NCBI GenBank assembly: GCA_024397875.1
Contig: CP073344.1
Span: forward strand, 1,603,001-1,667,000
Reading direction: 5' to 3'
Length of the DNA stretch: 64,000 nt
DNA from: Amphritea atlantica
Lineage (GTDB): Bacteria; Pseudomonadota; Gammaproteobacteria; Pseudomonadales; Balneatricaceae
The notes under the pieces are model-generated. The model was given only the letters and a program-made list of their open reading frames with translations. It made no database searches and had not been told where the DNA came from. Each line of letters opens with the position of its first letter. Positions within the stretch are counted from its first letter, which is position 1. A program made the position numbers and the translations under genes. Of this stretch, positions 5,201 through 13,744 are shown piece after piece.

Positions 5201-5632
5201 ATGCCTGTAATGACCATTGAACAGATGAGCCGCTTTCTGGCTGAGCATTTTCCTCAGGGTGAAAAATTCGGTGTGCTGACCGGATTGGGGGATAACTGGG
5301 CTGAGATGAAGCTGCCGGTAGATGATGAACATCTGCGTCCCGGGGGCACCGTCTCCGGACCGTCGATGATGGCGTTAGCGGATGTCTGCATGTATGCCGC
5401 GTTGCTGGGACGGATCGGTCCGGTAGCACTGGCGGTGACCACCAACCTGAATATCAATTTTATGAGCAAGCCCCGGCCCGATGCTGATCTGCTGGCTCGC
5501 TGCAGTCTGATGAAGGTGGGCAAACGACTGGCCGTCGGCGAAGTCTGGATTCGTTCTGAAGGCAGCGATGAGCTGGTGGCGCATACCACGCTGACCTATT
5601 CGATACCGGCGTCAGCATCTGCGGAGTGCTGA
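5201..5632 (+). CDS. PaaI-type hotdog thioesterase (second copy)
   Basis: A 143-residue hotdog-fold protein with RPGGTVSGPSMMALADVCMYAALLG in the active-site loop and central helix, then AVTTNLNINFMSKPRPDADLLARC. GAGG at 5184 lies upstream of the ATG. It reads on directly into the hydrolase gene, overlapping in the GGAGTGCTG region. In this copy the usual H-G-G turn is replaced by P-G-G-T-V-S-G-P, so catalytic residues may differ from the first thioesterase; a non-hydrolytic dehydratase-type role is possible but less likely. Its place in the acyl-CoA operon supports an acyl-CoA substrate. Confidence 0.8.
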   Translation: MPVMTIEQMSRFLAEHFPQGEKFGVLTGLGDNWAEMKLPVDDEHLRPGGTVSGPSMMALADVCMYAALLGRIGPVALAVTTNLNINFMSKPRPDADLLARCSLMKVGKRLAVGEVWIRSEGSDELVAHTTLTYSIPASASAEC

Positions 5633-5634
5633 TC

Positions 5635-6438
5635 ATGGATGATATCAGGTGGCAGGAAAGGCTGCTGACACTGGATGATGGTACCGAGATATTTGCCGTG
5701 CACGGGCAGCATCACCATAACGAAGGGTGGGACCGGCCCACGCTGGTATTACTGCATGAAGCGCTGGGTCATATCGATATGTGGAAGGACTTTCCGCAAC
5801 AGCTGGCGGATCAAACCGGGCTGGATCTGTTGGTCTATGAACGCCGTGGTTATGGCCGTTCATCACCGATTACCCTGCCACGCCCCGATGATTATCTCGA
5901 GCAGGAGGGACGTGACTGGCTGGCGCCTGTGCTGGATGCTGCCGGATTGGATGAGGTTGTACTGGTGGGCCACAGTGATGGTGGTTCCATCGCTCTGGTC
6001 GCTGCGGCCTGTCTGCCGGACAGGGTGGTAGCCATTATTACCGAAGCGGCCCATATCCGTATCGATCCATTAACCACCGCCGGTATTCATGAGGCAGTTG
6101 CACTTTATAACAGCACCGATCTGCCGCAACGTTTGGCCCGCTATCATGGTGAACGCACCGATCTATTGTTCCGCGCCTGGCATGAAACCTGGCTGCGGGA
6201 ACGGTTTCAACCGCTGGATCTGAGCGGTTATTTAAACGATATCCGCTGCCCGGCGCTGATTATTCAGGGGGAGGGTGATCAGTATGGCGAACGGTCACAG
6301 GTTGAGGATATTGTCAGCGGCATAGGTGACAAGGCCGGGGCGCTGTTTATACCTGATTGTGGTCATGTGCCACACCTGCAGGCGAGAGACGCAACGCTGC
6401 AAGCGATGAAAGAATTTATCGAGTCGCTGGCTATCTGA
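5635..6438 (+). CDS. Alpha/beta hydrolase
   Basis: A 267-residue soluble alpha/beta hydrolase. The nucleophile elbow is GHSDGGSIAL with Ser114; the oxyanion strand region is LVLLHEALGHIDMW; the acid is probably the Asp in QGEGDQYG and the base the His in PDCGHVPHLQ. Start chosen at ATG 5635, eight bases after GGAG at 5623; a GTG at 5626 is in frame. The protein resembles meta-cleavage product hydrolases and esterases of aromatic or terpenoid catabolism more than lipases (no signal peptide). It ends the acyl-CoA operon and its 3' end overlaps the convergent DUF1772 gene by 8 bp. Substrate not identifiable. Confidence 0.85.
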   Translation: MDDIRWQERLLTLDDGTEIFAVHGQHHHNEGWDRPTLVLLHEALGHIDMWKDFPQQLADQTGLDLLVYERRGYGRSSPITLPRPDDYLEQEGRDWLAPVLDAAGLDEVVLVGHSDGGSIALVAAACLPDRVVAIITEAAHIRIDPLTTAGIHEAVALYNSTDLPQRLARYHGERTDLLFRAWHETWLRERFQPLDLSGYLNDIRCPALIIQGEGDQYGERSQVEDIVSGIGDKAGALFIPDCGHVPHLQARDATLQAMKEFIESLAI

Positions 6439-6980: not shown

Positions 6981-7823
6981 TCAGCTTGTTTCTTTTGCAT
7001 GTGCCCAGGCTCCACTCGCAACCGTTCTTAATACGTAATCACGGAATGAGCCTGGCTGACGCCCCAGTGCCTGCTCAACCCCCTGCGTTGTGTGGCTGTT
7101 GCGGCCATCCATTACCACTGTAAAGAGTTCATTCATCAGCCACAGCTCGTCATCTGCCAGGCCTTGATGTCTGAGTGCCTGCAAAAATTGTGTAATAGTA
7201 ATCGGGACAAAATTAACAGGTCTTTGAATTGCACAGGATATGATTCCGACACAATCACTGAAGGTTAAAAGTTCCGGCCCGGTGACTTCGAACAGCTGAT
7301 TATTCAGTTGTGGCTTTGTCAGGCAGGCAAAGGCCACCTCGGCAATATCTTCGGCGTCGACAAAAGGTTCAGGGATATCGCAGCCAGGGAGGGCAACCTG
7401 GCCGTTCATAATGCTTTCAATCAGAAAACCTTCACTGAAATTCTGGTCAAACCAACTGGCGCGCACTACGTTCCAGTTCAGACCACTATTGATCAGCAGC
7501 TGTTCTGCTTGCTGTGCGCCATCTTCACCGCGACCTGAGAGCAGTACAATATGGTGAATGCCTGCTTCTCTGGCCAAACGAATGAAGTTCGAAATCGCCT
7601 GACGGGCAGGGGGGATAGCAAGATCGGGCTGAAAACAGACATAGGCTGACTGGCAACCCTGCATCGCTTCAGGCCACCCTTCGGGGGATTGCCAGTCAAA
7701 GGCGGGAAGTGTTGAACGGGATACTGCGCGGGTCTGATAACCTGCACGTTGCAACTGAGCGTTTACTCTGCGCCCGGTTTTACCATGTTTACCAATGATT
7801 AGTGTGGTATGGGGGTTCATCGG
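6981..7823 (-). CDS. NmrA-like NAD(P)-binding atypical SDR
   Basis: The 280-residue protein starts MNPHTTLIIGKHGKTGRRV, giving the Rossmann GxxGxxG motif, then QTRAVSRS for cofactor phosphate binding. Conserved NmrA/atypical SDR blocks follow: HHIVLLSGRGEDG, NWNVVRASWFDQNFSEGFL and DAEDIAEVAFACLT. Start chosen at 7823 because AAGGAAC lies just upstream and the family begins immediately before the first strand; an upstream frame adds only a non-conserved 16 residues. Relatives are quinone or azo reductases, redox sensors and epimerase-like enzymes; which applies here is unclear. It is divergent from the AraC regulator, which is the obvious candidate controller. Confidence 0.82.
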   Translation of the reverse strand, partial: PMNPHTTLIIGKHGKTGRRVNAQLQRAGYQTRAVSRSTLPAFDWQSPEGWPEAMQGCQSAYVCFQPDLAIPPARQAISNFIRLAREAGIHHIVLLSGRGEDGAQQAEQLLINSGLNWNVVRASWFDQNFSEGFLIESIMNGQVALPGCDIPEPFVDAEDIAEVAFACLTKPQLNNQLFEVTGPELLTFSDCVGIISCAIQRPVNFVPITITQFLQALRHQGLADDELWLMNELFTVVMDGRNSHTTQGVEQALGRQPGSFRDYVLRTVASGAWAHAKETS

Positions 7824-7992
7824 ATTGTTCCTTTTAAGTATTTGGGTTTCAGCTTGTGTTTTAATCAACACTGACAGTATTGTGTAATTTGGATGGATAT
7901 TTAATGCTTTTTTGGCTATATAAATTGATTATTCGTCCAGGCTTGGTCCTTGGGATTTACCCTTAGACTCAGGCCGTTCTTAGGAGGCCACC

Positions 7993-8955
7993 ATGGATAT
8001 CCCTTCAATATTGTTCCCCGAGGCTAATGATCCTTTAGGAGGAGCGCTGCACCAGTTGCGTCTGAATGGCAGCCTTTACTGTCGCTCGGAGCTGAGTGGT
8101 GACTGGTCGCTGGAGATGCCGCGACTGCCCGGGAAGATGATGTTTCATATCATTACTTCAGGTCAGTGTTGGTTGCAGGTGGAGGGTGAAGCCGCAGTAT
8201 TGTTGCAGCAGGGATCCCTTGCTCTGGTGACACAGGGGCAGGGGCATATCATCAGCAGTGACCCGGAACTACCAGCAATCCCCCTTTTTGAAGCGGGCGT
8301 TCAGCAGGTCAGTGAGCGCTATGAAACACTGCAGATCAGAGGTGATGGCGCGGTCACAGAGCTGACTTGCGGAGTGATGGATTTCGATCAGGTCGCCGGA
8401 CGGAAACTGATTCAACAGCTGCCTGCGGTATTATTACTCGACCAGCTGGATCAGCCAGGTCAGGGCTGGCTAAACAGTACGCTGGCATTTATTGCGACCG
8501 AAGCACGGCAATTGAAGTCCGGAGGTGAAACCATTATCACCAACCTGGCAGATATTCTGATTATCCTGCTGATTCGACACTGGCTGGAACAGTCTCCAGA
8601 TGCACAGCGGGGTTGGCTAGGGGCTCTGCGCGACAAGCAGATCGGCACTGCGTTGCGTGCTATTCACCATCAACCTGAGAAAAACTGGACGGTTGATTCG
8701 CTGGCCCGAGAGTGCGGAATGTCGCGTTCAGGCTTTTCAGCACGGTTCTCGCAGCTGGTGGGTAATAGTGCAAAGTATTATCTGACTGAGTGGCGCATGA
8801 AGCTTGCCTACCAGCGACTCAGGCAGAGCCGTGTACCGCTGATTGTGCTGGCCGAAGAGCTGGGATATAACTCGGAAGCTGCGTTTTCCCGTGCTTTTAA
8901 ACGGGTGATGGGTATTTCACCGGGAGAGGTGCAGGACTCTGTATCGAGTGGTTAA
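7993..8955 (+). CDS. AraC family transcriptional regulator with cupin sensor domain
   Basis: 320 residues: an N-terminal AraC-type cupin (AraC_binding/Cupin_6, about 1-190) with PGKMMFHIITSGQCWLQVEG and LALVTQGQGHII, and a C-terminal pair of helix-turn-helix motifs (about 215-310) with ENWTV-like entry, LARECGMSRSGFSARFSQLVG and LAEELGYNSEAAFSRAFKRV-type segments. A strong TAGGAGG site precedes the ATG. It is transcribed divergently from the NmrA gene with 169 bp between starts, the usual arrangement for a local activator. The effector is not predictable. Confidence 0.9.
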   Translation: MDIPSILFPEANDPLGGALHQLRLNGSLYCRSELSGDWSLEMPRLPGKMMFHIITSGQCWLQVEGEAAVLLQQGSLALVTQGQGHIISSDPELPAIPLFEAGVQQVSERYETLQIRGDGAVTELTCGVMDFDQVAGRKLIQQLPAVLLLDQLDQPGQGWLNSTLAFIATEARQLKSGGETIITNLADILIILLIRHWLEQSPDAQRGWLGALRDKQIGTALRAIHHQPEKNWTVDSLARECGMSRSGFSARFSQLVGNSAKYYLTEWRMKLAYQRLRQSRVPLIVLAEELGYNSEAAFSRAFKRVMGISPGEVQDSVSSG

Positions 8956-9304
8956 GAGTCAGGGGCTGGCGTATTGGATTGGACTGCCCCTCATGTTTCC
9001 ACTTACTGTTTTTACAAAGTCTATTCCATAGTGATTGTTTCTATGTAAACATCGAGTGGCAAGGAATAAGCACAACTGATCCAGGGAATTAGAACGATGA
9101 TGAATCGTATTAATGGTCATTTCAAAGATTATCTGCAGATAGACGACAGGTTGTCGTATTTCTCCATACTGAAAAAATCAGTCCCGAAAAATAGCGCCCT
9201 TAATATCAGTGCCTTAGAGCAAGAGCACATTTTTCAAAATTCAATTGAACATAATAGACGCCAACTTGTTGCATTTTTCCAAATGCCTTGTCGTCTATTT
9301 AGCT
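8956..9304. other. Region between araC and first cassette; weak 70-codon frame
   Basis: This 349-bp stretch precedes the integron cassettes. A frame of 70 codons (9097-9309, ATG-ATG start) is preceded only by AGGGAA at a plausible distance, its product matches nothing I recognise, and its 3' end runs through the hairpin described at 9250-9311 and stops inside the core site TGTTAG. It may be the remnant of an additional, truncated cassette. A 6-bp inverted repeat AGGGGC...GCCCCT (about 8962-8994) follows araC but has no T-tract. No integrase gene is present here. Confidence 0.35.
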
Positions 9305-9311
9305 GTTAGGC
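9250..9311 (+). other. Candidate degenerate attC at left end of cassette array
   Basis: A perfect 8-bp inverted repeat, AATAGACG (9253-9260) and CGTCTATT (9292-9299), encloses an inner stem GCATTT/AAATGC (9271-9286), and the structure ends at the core site GTTAGGC (9305-9311), the recombination point for the MAPEG cassette. A clear left-hand R'' box is lacking: CGCCAAC at 9259-9265 or ATTGAAC at 9244-9250 each miss the RYYYAAC consensus by one base. Neither has a matching GTT start upstream, so the cassette it once closed is incomplete. It could alternatively be a relic of the platform attachment site. Confidence 0.4.
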
Positions 9312-9330
9312 AGACAAAAGGAGAATCAGC

Positions 9331-9732
9331 ATGGCTTTGCCAGTCACTTCATTACTAGCGGGCATCTTTACGTTACTGATGGTGCCTTTGAGTCTTCAAA
9401 TCTCGATGAGCCGCGCAAAGATCGGCGGTATTTCTGGAGGTCTCACATTCGGCGATGGTGGGGATGAAACTCTGCGCCGCAAGATCAGGGCACATGGCAA
9501 TTTCATCGAGTACGCCCCCGCGGCGCTTATTGCACTCGGCCTCGTTGAGTACGGCGGAGGAGAAAAAACTCTCGTGCTCGGTCTTGCTGGTGCCTTCCTC
9601 ATCAGTCGGCTGATACATGCTGGAGGAATGCTCTATACGTCCACACCGCTCCTTCGAGGTATAGGCATGCTCATACAACACATCGCTTTTATTATCGCTG
9701 GAGGTTGGCTTGTACTGCAAGTGGCTGCCTAA
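9331..9732 (+). CDS. MAPEG family membrane protein (cassette gene 1)
   Basis: 133 residues with about four hydrophobic segments. The block RRKIRAHGNFIEYAPAALIA, followed by LGLVEYGGG and a C-terminal LIHAGGMLYTSTPLLRGIGM region, is the MAPEG signature (membrane-associated proteins in eicosanoid and glutathione metabolism). Bacterial members are poorly characterised; some are glutathione transferase-like. AAAGGAG lies 9 bases before the ATG. The gene starts 26 bp into the cassette and its stop codon TAA lies inside the attC R'' box, a compact cassette layout. MAPEG genes are recurrent integron cassette cargo to my knowledge, which fits the setting. Confidence 0.88.
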   Translation: MALPVTSLLAGIFTLLMVPLSLQISMSRAKIGGISGGLTFGDGGDETLRRKIRAHGNFIEYAPAALIALGLVEYGGGEKTLVLGLAGAFLISRLIHAGGMLYTSTPLLRGIGMLIQHIAFIIAGGWLVLQVAA

Positions 9733-9814
9733 CAAAGCCAAGCACAATCGGCCATACCAAAAGCACATGGGCTGGACCTCGCTGACGCTCGGCCTTGTGT
9801 TGGCTGCGTTATGT
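9727..9814 (+). other. attC site 1 (88 bp)
   Basis: Begins with R'' GCCTAAC (9727-9733) and ends with the core site GTTATGT (9808-9814). The inner arms CCAAGCACAA and TTGTGTTGG pair with one unpaired base on the left arm, the extrahelical base expected of attC hairpins. The central region carries the familiar GGACCTCGCTGACGCTCGG segment. R'' is the reverse complement of GTTAGGC at 9305, the start of the same cassette. Confidence 0.88.
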
Positions 9815-9822
9815 TCAGAACC

Positions 9823-10230
9823 ATGAATGATGCGAAACTAGTAACGGTTGCCTCATATTCGTTCCCGTATGAGGCGCATATGGCAAGGGCCAGGTTGGAG
9901 GCCAGTGGTATTCCGGTATTTGTTGCGGACGAATATACGGTGAATATGCAGTGGCTTTATTCGAATGCGATCGGCGGGGTAAAAGTACAGGTGCCACTCC
10001 GTTTCGCCAATCAAGCCAAGGCTATTTTGGCGCAAGACTATTCCGATCTTTTGGACGAAGAATTTGGAAAAGACGAGGTTGTGTGCCCCAAATGCGGTAG
10101 TGCAGACGTTGAGCCATTTACTAAAGGTAAAAGGCCCGCATTCGTTGTCTTTCTGTTGCTGGGTTTTCCTCTGTTCTTTTGCCGACACGGAATAAGGTGC
10201 AAGTCATGCGGGCAATTCAGTCAAACATAA
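9823..10230 (+). CDS. DUF2007 protein with membrane hairpin and zinc ribbon (cassette gene 2)
   Basis: 135 residues. The N-terminal half (VTVASYSFPYEAHMARARLEASGIPVFVADE to IGGVKVQVP) is the DUF2007 ferredoxin-like domain, annotated as a putative signal-transducing domain. The C-terminal part has CPKCGS, a hydrophobic segment FVVFLLLGFPLFFC and CKSCG, forming a split zinc ribbon around a membrane-inserting stretch. I chose ATG 9823; an in-frame ATG at 9811 lies within the recombination core and leaves no leader. No clear Shine-Dalgarno is visible, common for cassette genes that rely on upstream signals. The TAA stop overlaps the R'' box of attC 2. Confidence 0.8.
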   Translation: MNDAKLVTVASYSFPYEAHMARARLEASGIPVFVADEYTVNMQWLYSNAIGGVKVQVPLRFANQAKAILAQDYSDLLDEEFGKDEVVCPKCGSADVEPFTKGKRPAFVVFLLLGFPLFFCRHGIRCKSCGQFSQT

Positions 10231-10302
10231 CTATCGGCACCAGGCGCCCCCTCAAATGCGGCGCGGCTGCTTTTGGGGGATGCCTGAGCCGAGCCGTTAT
10301 AA
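10225..10302 (+). other. attC site 2 (78 bp)
   Basis: R'' is ACATAAC (10225-10231), exact complement of GTTATGT opening the same cassette at 9808. The core at the right end is GTTATAA (10296-10302). Between them ATCGGC/GCCGAG, AGGC/GCCT and CCCC/GGGG arms form a long imperfect hairpin. It is more GC-rich than its neighbours. Confidence 0.85.
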
Positions 10303-10324
10303 CTTTACATGGAGGTATCGAGAA

Positions 10325-10759
10325 ATGAATTTCAGAGTAATACTGTTAGCTACGGTTTTATTTGCGTCAACCCCTGGTTTCGCTGGATTTAGTAGCTACG
10401 AAAGCTTCAGCAGTGATGGTGGTGTAGTAGCCCCGATCGTTATCAATGATCAAGGGTTCTTTAACCTGGCGGTATCAGTTCAATTCGTCAGAGAACCCTA
10501 TGAAAAATCTCCTTATGAGTCTGATGAATACCACGCATTGATCTCAAGGCTAAGTGTTGAGTGGCAAGGCTTAGCGATTCAAAATATCCTTGATACTCCG
10601 CCAATAGAACCCGCAGCTCTCAGTAACTTAAAGAAAGCGATTGAGACTGCTATCAATAAGTTAATAAAAGATACTAAATCTAAATATGGTATTAAAGATT
10701 CCACCGAAGTCGTGTACTCGATAGATAATTTTTACCTCATTGAAGCAGCCCGAGAATAA
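10325..10759 (+). CDS. Secreted hypothetical protein, possibly FliL-like (cassette gene 3)
   Basis: 144 residues beginning with a clean Sec signal peptide, MNFRVILLATVLFASTPGFA, so the product is probably periplasmic. The mature part has INDQGFFNLAVSVQFV, then helices around RLSVEWQGLAIQNIL and KKAIETAINKLI, and ends VVYSIDNFYLIEA. The order (strand, long helix, second helix with IN, final V-Y-x3-F-x-I strand) recalls the periplasmic domain of FliL/stomatin-like proteins, but motif identity is weak. GGAGG at 10311-10315 fixes the ATG at 10325; a longer upstream frame would read back through attC 2. Base composition is AT-richer than the flanking core genes. Function unknown. Confidence 0.75.
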   Translation: MNFRVILLATVLFASTPGFAGFSSYESFSSDGGVVAPIVINDQGFFNLAVSVQFVREPYEKSPYESDEYHALISRLSVEWQGLAIQNILDTPPIEPAALSNLKKAIETAINKLIKDTKSKYGIKDSTEVVYSIDNFYLIEAARE

Positions 10760-10763
10760 AAAA

Positions 10764-10850
10764 TTATAACAAGGCGGTTCAAAACCGAGCGCTTTGCTCA
10801 CTGGGACCTCCACTGCTACGCAGCTCCGGCCCCTAAATTAGGCGTTAGTA
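10764..10850 (+). other. attC site 3 (87 bp)
   Basis: R'' is TTATAAC (10764-10770), exact complement of the GTTATAA that opens this cassette at 10296. The right core is GTTAGTA (10844-10850). The centre has the GGGACCTCCACTGCTACGCAG-type arm seen in many chromosomal cassette arrays, and ends AATTAGGC before the core. Confidence 0.87.
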
Positions 10851-10884
10851 GTTCATATCAAGCAATGAGTGTGAAAGGAAACAC

Positions 10885-11364
10885 ATGAGCATAGTCAAAT
10901 CTTCGATCAATGATGCTGAAGCTCTTTCAAGGATAATCAGCGAATCAAATAAGGATGTTGCGAAAGAGTTTGGCCTCAATATTGATAACAACCCAAAGCA
11001 TCCCTCATTTTGTAATAAAGACTGGGTCTTGGCTGATTTTGATCGTGGTGAAGAGTATTTTATATACAAAAGTGGAGGTGCTGGTATTGGGTGTGTAGCT
11101 TTTGAAAACCCTAAGCCTGGTGTTACCTACTTGAATCGTCTTTCCGTGCTTCCTCAATATCGGTTCAATGGAGTAGGAGAAGAGCTGGTAAGGCATGTAT
11201 TTAGCTATGCAGAAACGAAGAATATTCAAATAGTAAGCATCGGTATTATTGCTGAGCATATAAGGCTTAAGAGCTGGTATCTGAGACTAGGGTTTATAGA
11301 AGGGGAAATAAAGACCTTCCCACATCTTCCATTTGATGTTCAGTACATGAGTTTTGGGTTATAA
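10885..11364 (+). CDS. GNAT family N-acetyltransferase (cassette gene 4)
   Basis: 159 residues. The GNAT core runs from AGIGCVAFENPKPGVTYLNRLSV into the acetyl-CoA-binding loop LPQYRFNGVGEELVRHV (the Q/R-x-x-G-x-G/A pattern), then VSIGIIAEHIRLKSWYLRLGF, the family's typical final helix and strand. AGGA five bases before the ATG is a good ribosome binding site. Base composition is visibly AT-rich relative to the flanking core genes, in line with an imported cassette. GNAT enzymes are frequent integron cargo; the acceptor (antibiotic, toxin, protein or small metabolite) is not predictable. Confidence 0.87.
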   Translation: MSIVKSSINDAEALSRIISESNKDVAKEFGLNIDNNPKHPSFCNKDWVLADFDRGEEYFIYKSGGAGIGCVAFENPKPGVTYLNRLSVLPQYRFNGVGEELVRHVFSYAETKNIQIVSIGIIAEHIRLKSWYLRLGFIEGEIKTFPHLPFDVQYMSFGL

Positions 11365-11367
11365 AAC

Positions 11368-11441
11368 TACTAACAAGTTGCAGCAGCATCGGCCCTTTGG
11401 ACCTGGACTTGCTAACGCTCGCCGCTGTGCCGGCGTTAGGC
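11368..11441 (+). other. attC site 4 (74 bp), right end of array
   Basis: R'' is TACTAAC (11368-11374; extended CTACTAAC), exact complement of the GTTAGTAG opening the GNAT cassette at 10844. The right core is GTTAGGC (11435-11441). The interior carries GGACCTGGACTTGCTAACGC. No partner GCCTAAC box follows before the response-regulator gene, so this is the last recognisable attC; the following 170 bp hold no gene I can support. Confidence 0.87.
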
Positions 11442-11609: not shown

Positions 11610-12218
11610 TCAGCCTTCCAGCTGTGATGCCTGATTCACCAGTTCTGGCAGACTCTCTGCGCGCATTTTGCTCATCACCCGGGAGCGATGCACTTCAACG
11701 GTTTTCGGACTGATACCCAGCTCTTCGGCGATCTCCCGGTTGGCTTTGCCACTGACGACCAGTGACATTACCTCACGCTCGCGCCGACTCAGGGTTTCGT
11801 ACTGCTTGCGAACCTGCTCCTGTTGCTGGCGGTCGGCAAACATCTCATCCGCCTTAATCAGTGCATTCTGCACCAGCGGGATCAGTACTTCATCGTCGAA
11901 TGGTTTTTCGAGAAAGTCGATGGCACCGTTTTTCATTGCGGTCACCGCCATGGGAATATCACCATGACCGCTGAGCACCACGATCGGCAGACGGATATCC
12001 CGTTCCAGCATTATTTGCTGTAGTGCGAGACCGTTAATTTCTGGCATACGCACATCCAGCAGCATACAGCCCTTATCGCCTTTATAGTTGCTGAGAAAGT
12101 CCCGGGCGGAGGAAAAGCTCTGGACCGGAAGGTCGTCACTTTCTAATAGCCACTGCATGGAGTCGCGAAAGTCATCGTCGTCATCAACAATAAAAACAGT
12201 GCCGCTGTATCTGGTCAT
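11610..12218 (-). CDS. FixJ/NarL-family response regulator
   Basis: 202 residues. Receiver domain (about 5-120) with the acidic cluster VDDDDDF, phospho-acceptor Asp in MLLDVRMPEING, the Thr/Ser position LSGHGDI and Lys in FLEKPF. C-terminal LuxR-type helix-turn-helix (about 138-200) with LSRREREVMSLVVSGKANRE, GISPKTVEVHRSRVM and KM. The closest layout is FixJ/TodT/DctR. It is 11 bp downstream of the histidine kinase gene on the same strand and is its evident partner. The targets probably include the divergent acyl-CoA synthetase gene (inference from position). Confidence 0.92.
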   Translation of the reverse strand: MTRYSGTVFIVDDDDDFRDSMQWLLESDDLPVQSFSSARDFLSNYKGDKGCMLLDVRMPEINGLALQQIMLERDIRLPIVVLSGHGDIPMAVTAMKNGAIDFLEKPFDDEVLIPLVQNALIKADEMFADRQQQEQVRKQYETLSRREREVMSLVVSGKANREIAEELGISPKTVEVHRSRVMSKMRAESLPELVNQASQLEG

Positions 12219-12229
12219 GTTTGTAGGTC

Positions 12230-13744
12230 CTAGCCTTTCGCTGGAATTTTAATATAAAACTGAGTGCCTGATTTACCGTCGCTTTCCGCCCACAACTGTC
12301 CTCCGTGGGCCTCAATAATCGTGCGGGATATCGACAGGCCCATACCCAGACCGGTCGATTTTGAGGTAAAGAACGGTTCAAACAACTTACTTAAAATCTC
12401 GGTGCTGATGCCATTAGCATGGTCCGAAACGGATATGTAGACATAATCTTTAGCTCTCCGGGTGCTTATGATAACGGGACGATGACTTTTTTCACAGTCG
12501 TTATAAGCTTCGATTGCATTGCGGATCAGATTGACCAGCACCTGTTCGATCTGAATTTTATCCGCCAGGATCGGCAGGTCACCATGTTCCAGTTCAAACT
12601 GAAATGTTGTGTTGTGATCCAGCGCTTCCTGTTTGAGAAATTCGGCGATCTCCTGACAGCTTTCATTAAGGGAGAACTCCATTCGCTGGTATTCAGTTTT
12701 TTTGACGAAGCTGCGCATCCGCTTGACGATCTCGGCGGCGCGTTTGGCCTGCCGGGTGATCAGTTCCATCGATTTACCGATCTCTTCGACGGTGGTGATG
12801 CGACCCTCTTCAATACGCCGCATTGATCCACGGCAGTAATTGAGAATGGCGGCCAGCGGCTGATTGATCTCATGGGCCAGTCCTGAGGCCATCTCACCGA
12901 CGGAAAGCAGGCGGGCGATGTGAGCCATCTCCAACTGGTTACGCTTCATCTCCTCTTCGGCTTTACGGCGCAGGGTAATATCCCGGCCAATGATTGAGTA
13001 GTACTCCACCTGCATATCATCGTTAAGGTTGCGGTGGGCGATAACTTCACGGATCTCAGCGGTACGGTCCCGCCCTGAGGGCAGCTGCATCTTGATACTG
13101 CCATACCAGGTGCCATGAGCCGCCGCATGACTAAGCGCATCCTGTACCAGGGTGGCAAATATCCTCGGTTCAAACATCTGCTCCAGATAGAACACCATCG
13201 GGTTTTCTTTCTCGGTACCGAGGGTGATATAGGTCGCCTCATTCATATAGGTCAGCTGCATGGTCTTATGGTTGCAGAACATGATCATATCGGACGATGC
13301 TTCTACCACCCGTGCCAGTCGGCGGGTTGCCTGCTGGGCCAGTGTCTGTTCGGTCACATCGCGGGAAACACACACCACTTCAATCGGTTTGCCGTCTGAA
13401 TCCCGCAGGGTGCGGCTGGTGGTTTCCAGCCAGATATAGTGGCCGTTTTTATGCTTATAGCGAAAAACATTGGTGTACATTCCTTTACGGTAACGTACCG
13501 AATCTGAGCGCTTGATAAGGTTGTCGGCATCTTCCGGGTGAAACAGATCATAGCCCGCGGTGCCGATCATCTCTTCAACGGTATAGCCAAGCATCCGTTC
13601 AACCGCCGGGCTGACATCGAGAAACGTCCATTCAGGTGTCGGCGTGTGGCGGGAGATCATATCGGTGGACTGTTCAACCAGAAAGCGGGAGCGTTCTCCC
13701 TCATCCATTTCGCTGATCGCTTTCAGTTCTTGTTCTATACTCAT
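12230..13744 (-). CDS. Two-PAS sensor histidine kinase (FixL/TodS-like)
   Basis: 504 residues without membrane segments: PAS 1 (about 22-130), PAS 2 (about 145-265), a DHp domain with phospho-acceptor His in ASGLAHEINQPLAAILNY (about 290) and an ATPase domain with NLIRNAIEAYND (N box), FEPFFTSK (F box) and GLGMGLSIS (G2). The G1 box reads SDHANGI, where most kinases have D-N/G-G-x-G, so one glycine position is Ala. A heme-binding PAS as in FixL cannot be confirmed. First gene of the kinase-regulator pair, divergent from an acyl-CoA synthetase gene with 223 bp between them; a cytosolic signal, such as a metabolite or redox state, is likely. Confidence 0.9.
   Translation of the reverse strand: MSIEQELKAISEMDEGERSRFLVEQSTDMISRHTPTPEWTFLDVSPAVERMLGYTVEEMIGTAGYDLFHPEDADNLIKRSDSVRYRKGMYTNVFRYKHKNGHYIWLETTSRTLRDSDGKPIEVVCVSRDVTEQTLAQQATRRLARVVEASSDMIMFCNHKTMQLTYMNEATYITLGTEKENPMVFYLEQMFEPRIFATLVQDALSHAAAHGTWYGSIKMQLPSGRDRTAEIREVIAHRNLNDDMQVEYYSIIGRDITLRRKAEEEMKRNQLEMAHIARLLSVGEMASGLAHEINQPLAAILNYCRGSMRRIEEGRITTVEEIGKSMELITRQAKRAAEIVKRMRSFVKKTEYQRMEFSLNESCQEIAEFLKQEALDHNTTFQFELEHGDLPILADKIQIEQVLVNLIRNAIEAYNDCEKSHRPVIISTRRAKDYVYISVSDHANGISTEILSKLFEPFFTSKSTGLGMGLSISRTIIEAHGGQLWAESDGKSGTQFYIKIPAKG

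Follow-up and report, generated by a model that had tools for sequence, protein, structure and literature searches.

A cassette array in Amphritea atlantica without a nearby integrase gene begins at a predicted attI site of a dispersed family

Introduction

How does a cluster of integron cassettes come to stand where there is no integrase gene? The question was raised by an array at 9305-11441 of a stretch of Amphritea atlantica DNA of 64,000 nucleotides (the window; C1:1603001-1667000, the genome being 4.55 Mb long and divided into 2 contigs). Cassette clusters without a nearby integrase, or CALINs, are common in Shewanella. They are described as outnumbering intI-bearing integrons in bacteria (PMC9668308) and as mobilisable in trans (PMC12444791, PMC9668308). 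The initial annotation had classed the array as a CALIN.

Results

The array consisted of four tandem single-gene cassettes on the plus strand, located where they had first been placed, and the last attC terminated at 11441.

9305..9807, plus strand: cassette 1, ORF 9331-9732, MAPEG family, 133 aa
9808..10295, plus strand: cassette 2, ORF 9811-10230, DUF2007, 139 aa
10296..10843, plus strand: cassette 3, ORF from ATG 10325 to 10759
10844..11434, plus strand: cassette 4, ORF 10885-11364, GNAT acetyltransferase, 159 aa
9727..9814, plus strand: attC1, R'' GCCTAAC, score 16.0, bottom-strand z -0.73
10225..10302, plus strand: attC2, R'' ACATAAC, score 14.4, bottom-strand z -2.79
10764..10850, plus strand: attC3, R'' TTATAAC, degenerate L boxes, score 7.4, bottom-strand z 0.07
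11368..11441, plus strand: attC4, R'' TACTAAC, score 10.0, bottom-strand z -1.77, last R' box GTTAGGC at 11435-11441

The R' box at the end of an attC is part of the next cassette. The first 7 bases of each cassette were the exact reverse complement of its own R'' box in 4/4 cases, as had been claimed, and in 0/12 cases when the boxes were rotated among the cassettes. The ORF of cassette 3, searched as the longer frame 10256-10759, had no Pfam or NCBIfam match. A plasmid search with the cassettes gave a single weak match, of the DUF2007 protein, in a Vibrio plasmid. The G+C contents of cassettes 1-4 were 53.3, 50.4, 41.6 and 41.3% (window 51.0%), a spread compatible with several donors.

The attC sites were scored with a home-made scorer rather than the published covariance models. 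A MAFFT alignment of attC sites was of too low quality to build a covariance model on. In shuffled DNA (228 kb, both strands) the scorer returned 8 matches of at least 10, and 4 more reached that score elsewhere in the real window. Against this background attC3 would be rejected if judged by score alone, and attC4 was borderline. The expectation that the bottom strands would fold as attC hairpins held for attC1 and attC2; attC4 preferred another fold and attC3 folded poorly, and in comparison with shuffled sequences only attC2 was clearly better than chance. A CALIN has at least two clustered attC sites: the cassette rule gave four, three scored at least 10, and two folded well. Rfam searched at gathering scores over the whole window returned one tRNA and nothing else.

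No intI was present in the window, which agrees with the initial annotation; the genome was searched with the TIGR02249 cut-off. Two places in the genome exceeded that cut-off, with attC-bearing cassettes following each. The nearest, C1:1514670-1515608, is ~97 kb from the array and contains one in-frame TGA; C1:2028104-2029045 is an open frame ~414 kb away. Both IntIs fell outside the clade described below (clade P), and their attI sites ended in CTATAATTTACTG^TTA and GTATTAAAATG^TTA. Because neither resident intI belongs to clade P or has this type of attI, the proposal that the array lies far from its platform was unsupported. The attI end at C1:1514670-1515608 resembles the Shewanella-type attI given in PMC9892861.

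The sequence before the first cassette had the following features.

9003..9308, plus strand: predicted attI region (leader) of the IntI clade P type, own intI missing; sequence model R1 matches 9034-9308
9006..9021, no strand: candidate LexA box, decayed, from the promoter of the missing intI (CTGT, 8 bases, AGTC for ACAG)
9097..9309, plus strand: 70-aa open frame within the attI region, no family match
9139..9160, no strand: first palindromic half-site block of the attI, with repeats, conserved among 13 copies
9254..9298, no strand: second palindromic half-site block, an inverted repeat adjoining the crossover, with arms that covary among copies

The crossover G^TT is at 9305, and the four cassettes were inserted there. 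Leader ORFs occur in attI1, and the 70-aa frame is perhaps one. The candidate LexA box, with 3/8 fixed positions changed, lies 303 bp from GTTA, and a search allowing 1 mismatch did not recover it. The distance from a LexA-like box to GTTA is 207-210 bp in the type of G003, G043, G108 and G137, and an intact box lies 290-299 bp from GTTA in three other Amphritea copies. The box at 9006-9021 is a possible, weak candidate for a remnant of the lost intI promoter.

Model R1, built from 13 copies of the leader, matched 9/17 genomes of the genus, 22/116 of the family (in 3/16 genera) and, with stricter filters (E 1e-4), 5/390 genomes drawn evenly from the order. At seven places (G003, G101, G105, G107, G043, G108 and G137) the leader homologue adjoined and diverged from an intI gene. 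The seven linked IntIs formed one clade, P (support 1.000), and all except that of G043 exceeded the TIGR02249 cut-off. Three of the linked genes were partial (G043, G108 and G137), and the G137 gene contains a stop. By homology to these intI-linked sites, 9003-9308 is the predicted attI of a clade-P integron minus its intI. The leader had earlier been considered as a transposon end, a MITE or an attC-like hairpin; these candidates were dropped after the intI-linked homologues appeared. By eye, the leader stem lacks a constant R'' and, in most cases, an extrahelical base.

The CALIN designation therefore stood as far as a cassette cluster without a nearby integrase is concerned; what it overlooked was the attI region before 9305. 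A complete integron has an intI beside the array and an attI at its head. Here no intI lay beside the array and the left flank was without intI homology, while an attI at the head was recognised by homology to intI-linked attI. This homology indicates that the insertion point of the block was not random and that the block is an integron minus intI.

Leader copies in the genus nearly all ended in ...TTTAGCTG^TTA and were followed by a different gene each; exact TTAGCTGTTA was found in 32/40 of the first copies. We compiled 60 copies from 3 genera and one genome of another family, most of them selected by the end motif (up to 3 mismatches). Antisense self-matches of the palindromes, hits lacking a right end (L154, L156, L162, G001:C14 and G001:C10:237513), the partial attI within the G001 array (L170), a repeat hit on a single site (L167 with L161) and chance motif hits (L158 and L184) were left out. 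GTTA stood at the end of 57/60 copies, a count that the end-motif selection favours. Homology to intI at 1e-2 was found in 11/60 left flanks (1.7 kb; 1.2 kb in one), comprising the 7 linked genes plus 4 remnants (139, 87, 64 and 41 aa). Three of the four remnants were in Amphritea and were nearest to the G101 IntI. The left flanks of the other 49 copies, including both copies in the genome of the window, held no intI trace at this threshold.

Cassettes followed many of these copies. An exact match between cassette start and own R'', sought in the first three attC-like sites downstream, was found behind 33/60 copies; shuffled 7-mers gave a mean of 4.3 and a maximum of 11 in 1000 rounds. The match was missing in 27 copies, some of which are at contig ends. 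Behind the second copy in the genome of the window, C1:1749572-1749842, stands one full cassette, then another with an R'' box but an undetected attC. In the G010:C11 copy (L133:13710-13750) the core CTGTTAG is tandemly repeated before the cassette, and the R'' of that cassette, CGCTAAC, agrees with the last repeat; repeated exchange of cassettes may have left this trace.

Several leader-bearing genomes lacked a matching integrase. Among the 9 of the genus, 8 had no clade-P IntI at 1e-60 (one, G011, is 75% complete), and G010, G008 and G002 had no intI whatever at that threshold. G109, a single-contig genome of another genus, had four attI places (C1 966052, 1900027, 2115089 and 2451657) and no intI at 1e-60.

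Conservation of the attI peaked in the palindromes and the core. Among 13 copies the majority fraction was 0.88 and 0.90 in the palindromic blocks, 0.74 in the 5' part and 0.66 in the middle. The arms of the second palindrome covaried, with 348/400 pairs in 40 distinct rows against a shuffled mean of 314.9 (sd 4.8) and maximum of 337; none of 2000 shuffles, in each of which the offset was re-chosen, reached the observed value, the kinship of the copies being left in. Genomes with a linked attI held 16 unlinked copies, of which 8 were nearest to their own linked attI, 5 tied with the linked attI of a sister genome (G043 / G108), and 3, all in G107, were nearer to others (0/3 there near their own). 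This likeness fits co-evolution with the resident IntI, as well as plain recent duplication. The leader tree grouped copies by species lineage (support 0.961 and 0.933) and not by locus, with G001_C13 as an exception; orthology may thus be blurred by gene conversion or spread.

The window array occupies a slot that could be compared across genomes.

5626..6438, plus strand: left anchor gene of the slot, present in 15/16 slot loci
6981-7871, minus strand: NmrA-like gene, between left anchor and attI in the window
7993-8955, plus strand: AraC-type gene, between left anchor and attI in the window
11610-12218, minus strand: right anchor, fixJ-like response regulator gene, right border of the slot
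12230-13744, minus strand: right anchor, fixL-like kinase gene, beyond the fixJ-like gene

At 1e-40 the AraC-type protein had at best matches of 32-36% identity, in five further genomes of the genus. For a FixJ-like protein of this genome the closest named records came from Amphritea (A. pacifica 96%, A. atlantica 95%), and a MAG reached 98%. Among the 16 slot loci, the window included, 5 held 20-60 bp and 1 was without the left gene. Leader and cassettes were present in 6 (the window, G001, G008, G010, G011 and A. pacifica). The slots of G014, G006, G002 and G007 (L056, L059, L060 and L062) held 1.3-7.7 kb of other DNA and no leader. The fixJ-side slot is a generally variable place. The six leader-bearing slots had no cassette protein in common (blastp at 1e-4; plus-strand ATG frames of at least 50 aa, taken from the leader to the fixJ-like gene). 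In G010, where the distance from anchor gene to attI end is 463 bp in all, the protein encoded in the first cassette region (L055:16538-17449) has a CAP12/Pycsar TIR effector domain and likely serves phage defence; an RND-type efflux operon lies further along.

The slots of G001 and A. pacifica formed the most informative pair. Their leaders were 96% identical, and left flank and leader together were 91.9% identical over 1625 bp, the likeness stopping at the last base of GTTA. Past GTTA the two were unrelated until the right flank, save for a 73-bp partial attI in G001 and a 28-bp piece. The distance from the end of the left gene to GTTA was 438 bp in G001 and 401 bp in A. pacifica; because ~275 bp of each is attI, no room is left for an intI. 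Most simply, the common ancestor of the pair would already have been without intI, and the cassettes would have been exchanged later by precise recombination at the attI. Such an exchange would require an IntI that acts in trans. The partial attI inside the G001 slot array (L057:12703-12770; G001:C10:100699-100769) is followed by a further gene.

Discussion

We consider the array probably to be an integrase-less integron whose attI was used, after loss of intI, by an IntI acting in trans. A clade-P integron would have lost its intI and kept the complete attI at 9003-9308. The same attI stands at several places in the chromosomes of Amphritea and related bacteria, in most cases with no intI. 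Cassettes would still have been inserted or excised at such sites after local loss of the gene. The trans-acting IntI may have come from another locus, another clade or incoming DNA. This account draws on comparison of sequences, namely leader homology, dispersal, absence of intI, precise junctions and differing cassettes at orthologous sites; from these we infer IntI binding, action in trans and the identity of the acting IntI. Because the genome of the window has no clade-P IntI, its attI is probably frozen or weakly used at present. The presumed server is likewise now absent from most leader-bearing genomes of the genus, given that 8/9 are without clade-P IntI at 1e-60.

A wider form of this reading can be offered only tentatively. 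One integrase may serve many scattered attI sites, which would evolve with the half-sites of the resident IntI, stay usable as reservoirs after intI loss and be serviced again when a compatible IntI arrives.

It seems rather unlikely that the copies are dead remnants, each once a complete integron of its own that lost intI separately, with nothing moved since and no action in trans. The intI remnants of 41 to 139 aa at 4/60 copies are what such decay would leave, as are the exact LexA boxes at promoter distance in several unlinked copies and the present lack of clade-P IntI in most leader-bearing Amphritea. However, the left side common to G001 and A. pacifica is without intI, yet the two carry unrelated cassettes exactly at the crossover; a longer ancestral array that lost different parts in each would still call for precise excision at the attI.

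Spread of attI and cassette blocks by homologous recombination or transfer, with whole arrays swapped at slots, is improbable. It would account for leaders that group by lineage and not by locus, and the several copies per Amphritea genome could recombine, but the likeness of G001 and A. pacifica ends at the last base of GTTA, where homologous exchange need not end. Insertion at a secondary site outside att sequences (attG) is described (PMC12444791, PMC12901181), and two other IntIs are encoded in the genome. That one of them made such an insertion here is highly improbable, because an attG is unrelated to attI or attC, whereas this flank is homologous to the attI found at 7 places beside intI and is repeated, with an almost constant end, at many loci.

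Like known CALINs, the array has several attC-bearing cassettes and no intI nearby; unlike them, it starts with a full predicted attI of an identifiable IntI clade that is multi-copy in the genus. The complete integrons at C1:2028104 and C1:1514670 of the same genome share with it an attI and cassettes at G^TT but have the intI that the 9305 array lacks. In the CALIN of Shewanella prophage M16-3, as described in PMC9892861, an attI likewise heads an intI-less array, and the same attI also heads a complete integron there. That is one prophage case, whereas here there is a 60-copy family with different cassettes at orthologous loci. The Xanthomonas CALINs likewise occupy conserved chromosomal places across species of one genus; the passages of PMC12444791 that describe them mention no attI and stress the same cassettes for X. 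citri pv. citri. In cassettes of the delta-attI type (PMC12901181), which the internal partial attI of G001 resembles, an attI likewise lies away from intI, but it replaces the attC at the 3' end of a cassette in mobile integrons and does not lie upstream of whole arrays as here. In the open-licence literature we found no dispersed attI family heading CALINs across a genus, the cassettes differing between orthologous sites, nor 'orphan attI' alongside integron, attI and integrase, and in the text found there Amphritea and integron occurred together in ballast-water work alone. CALINs, mobilisation in trans and a single attI-headed CALIN were thus known; the dispersed, genus-wide family of putative attI sites heading CALINs appears to be new.

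Whether CALINs originate by loss of intI or by insertion at odd sites can be answered where an attI heads the array; since one does so here, its origin points to intI loss. The orthologous slots provide natural pairs for testing cassette exchange at an intI-less attI. If service in trans is true, the integron would be a network of sites and not one locus.
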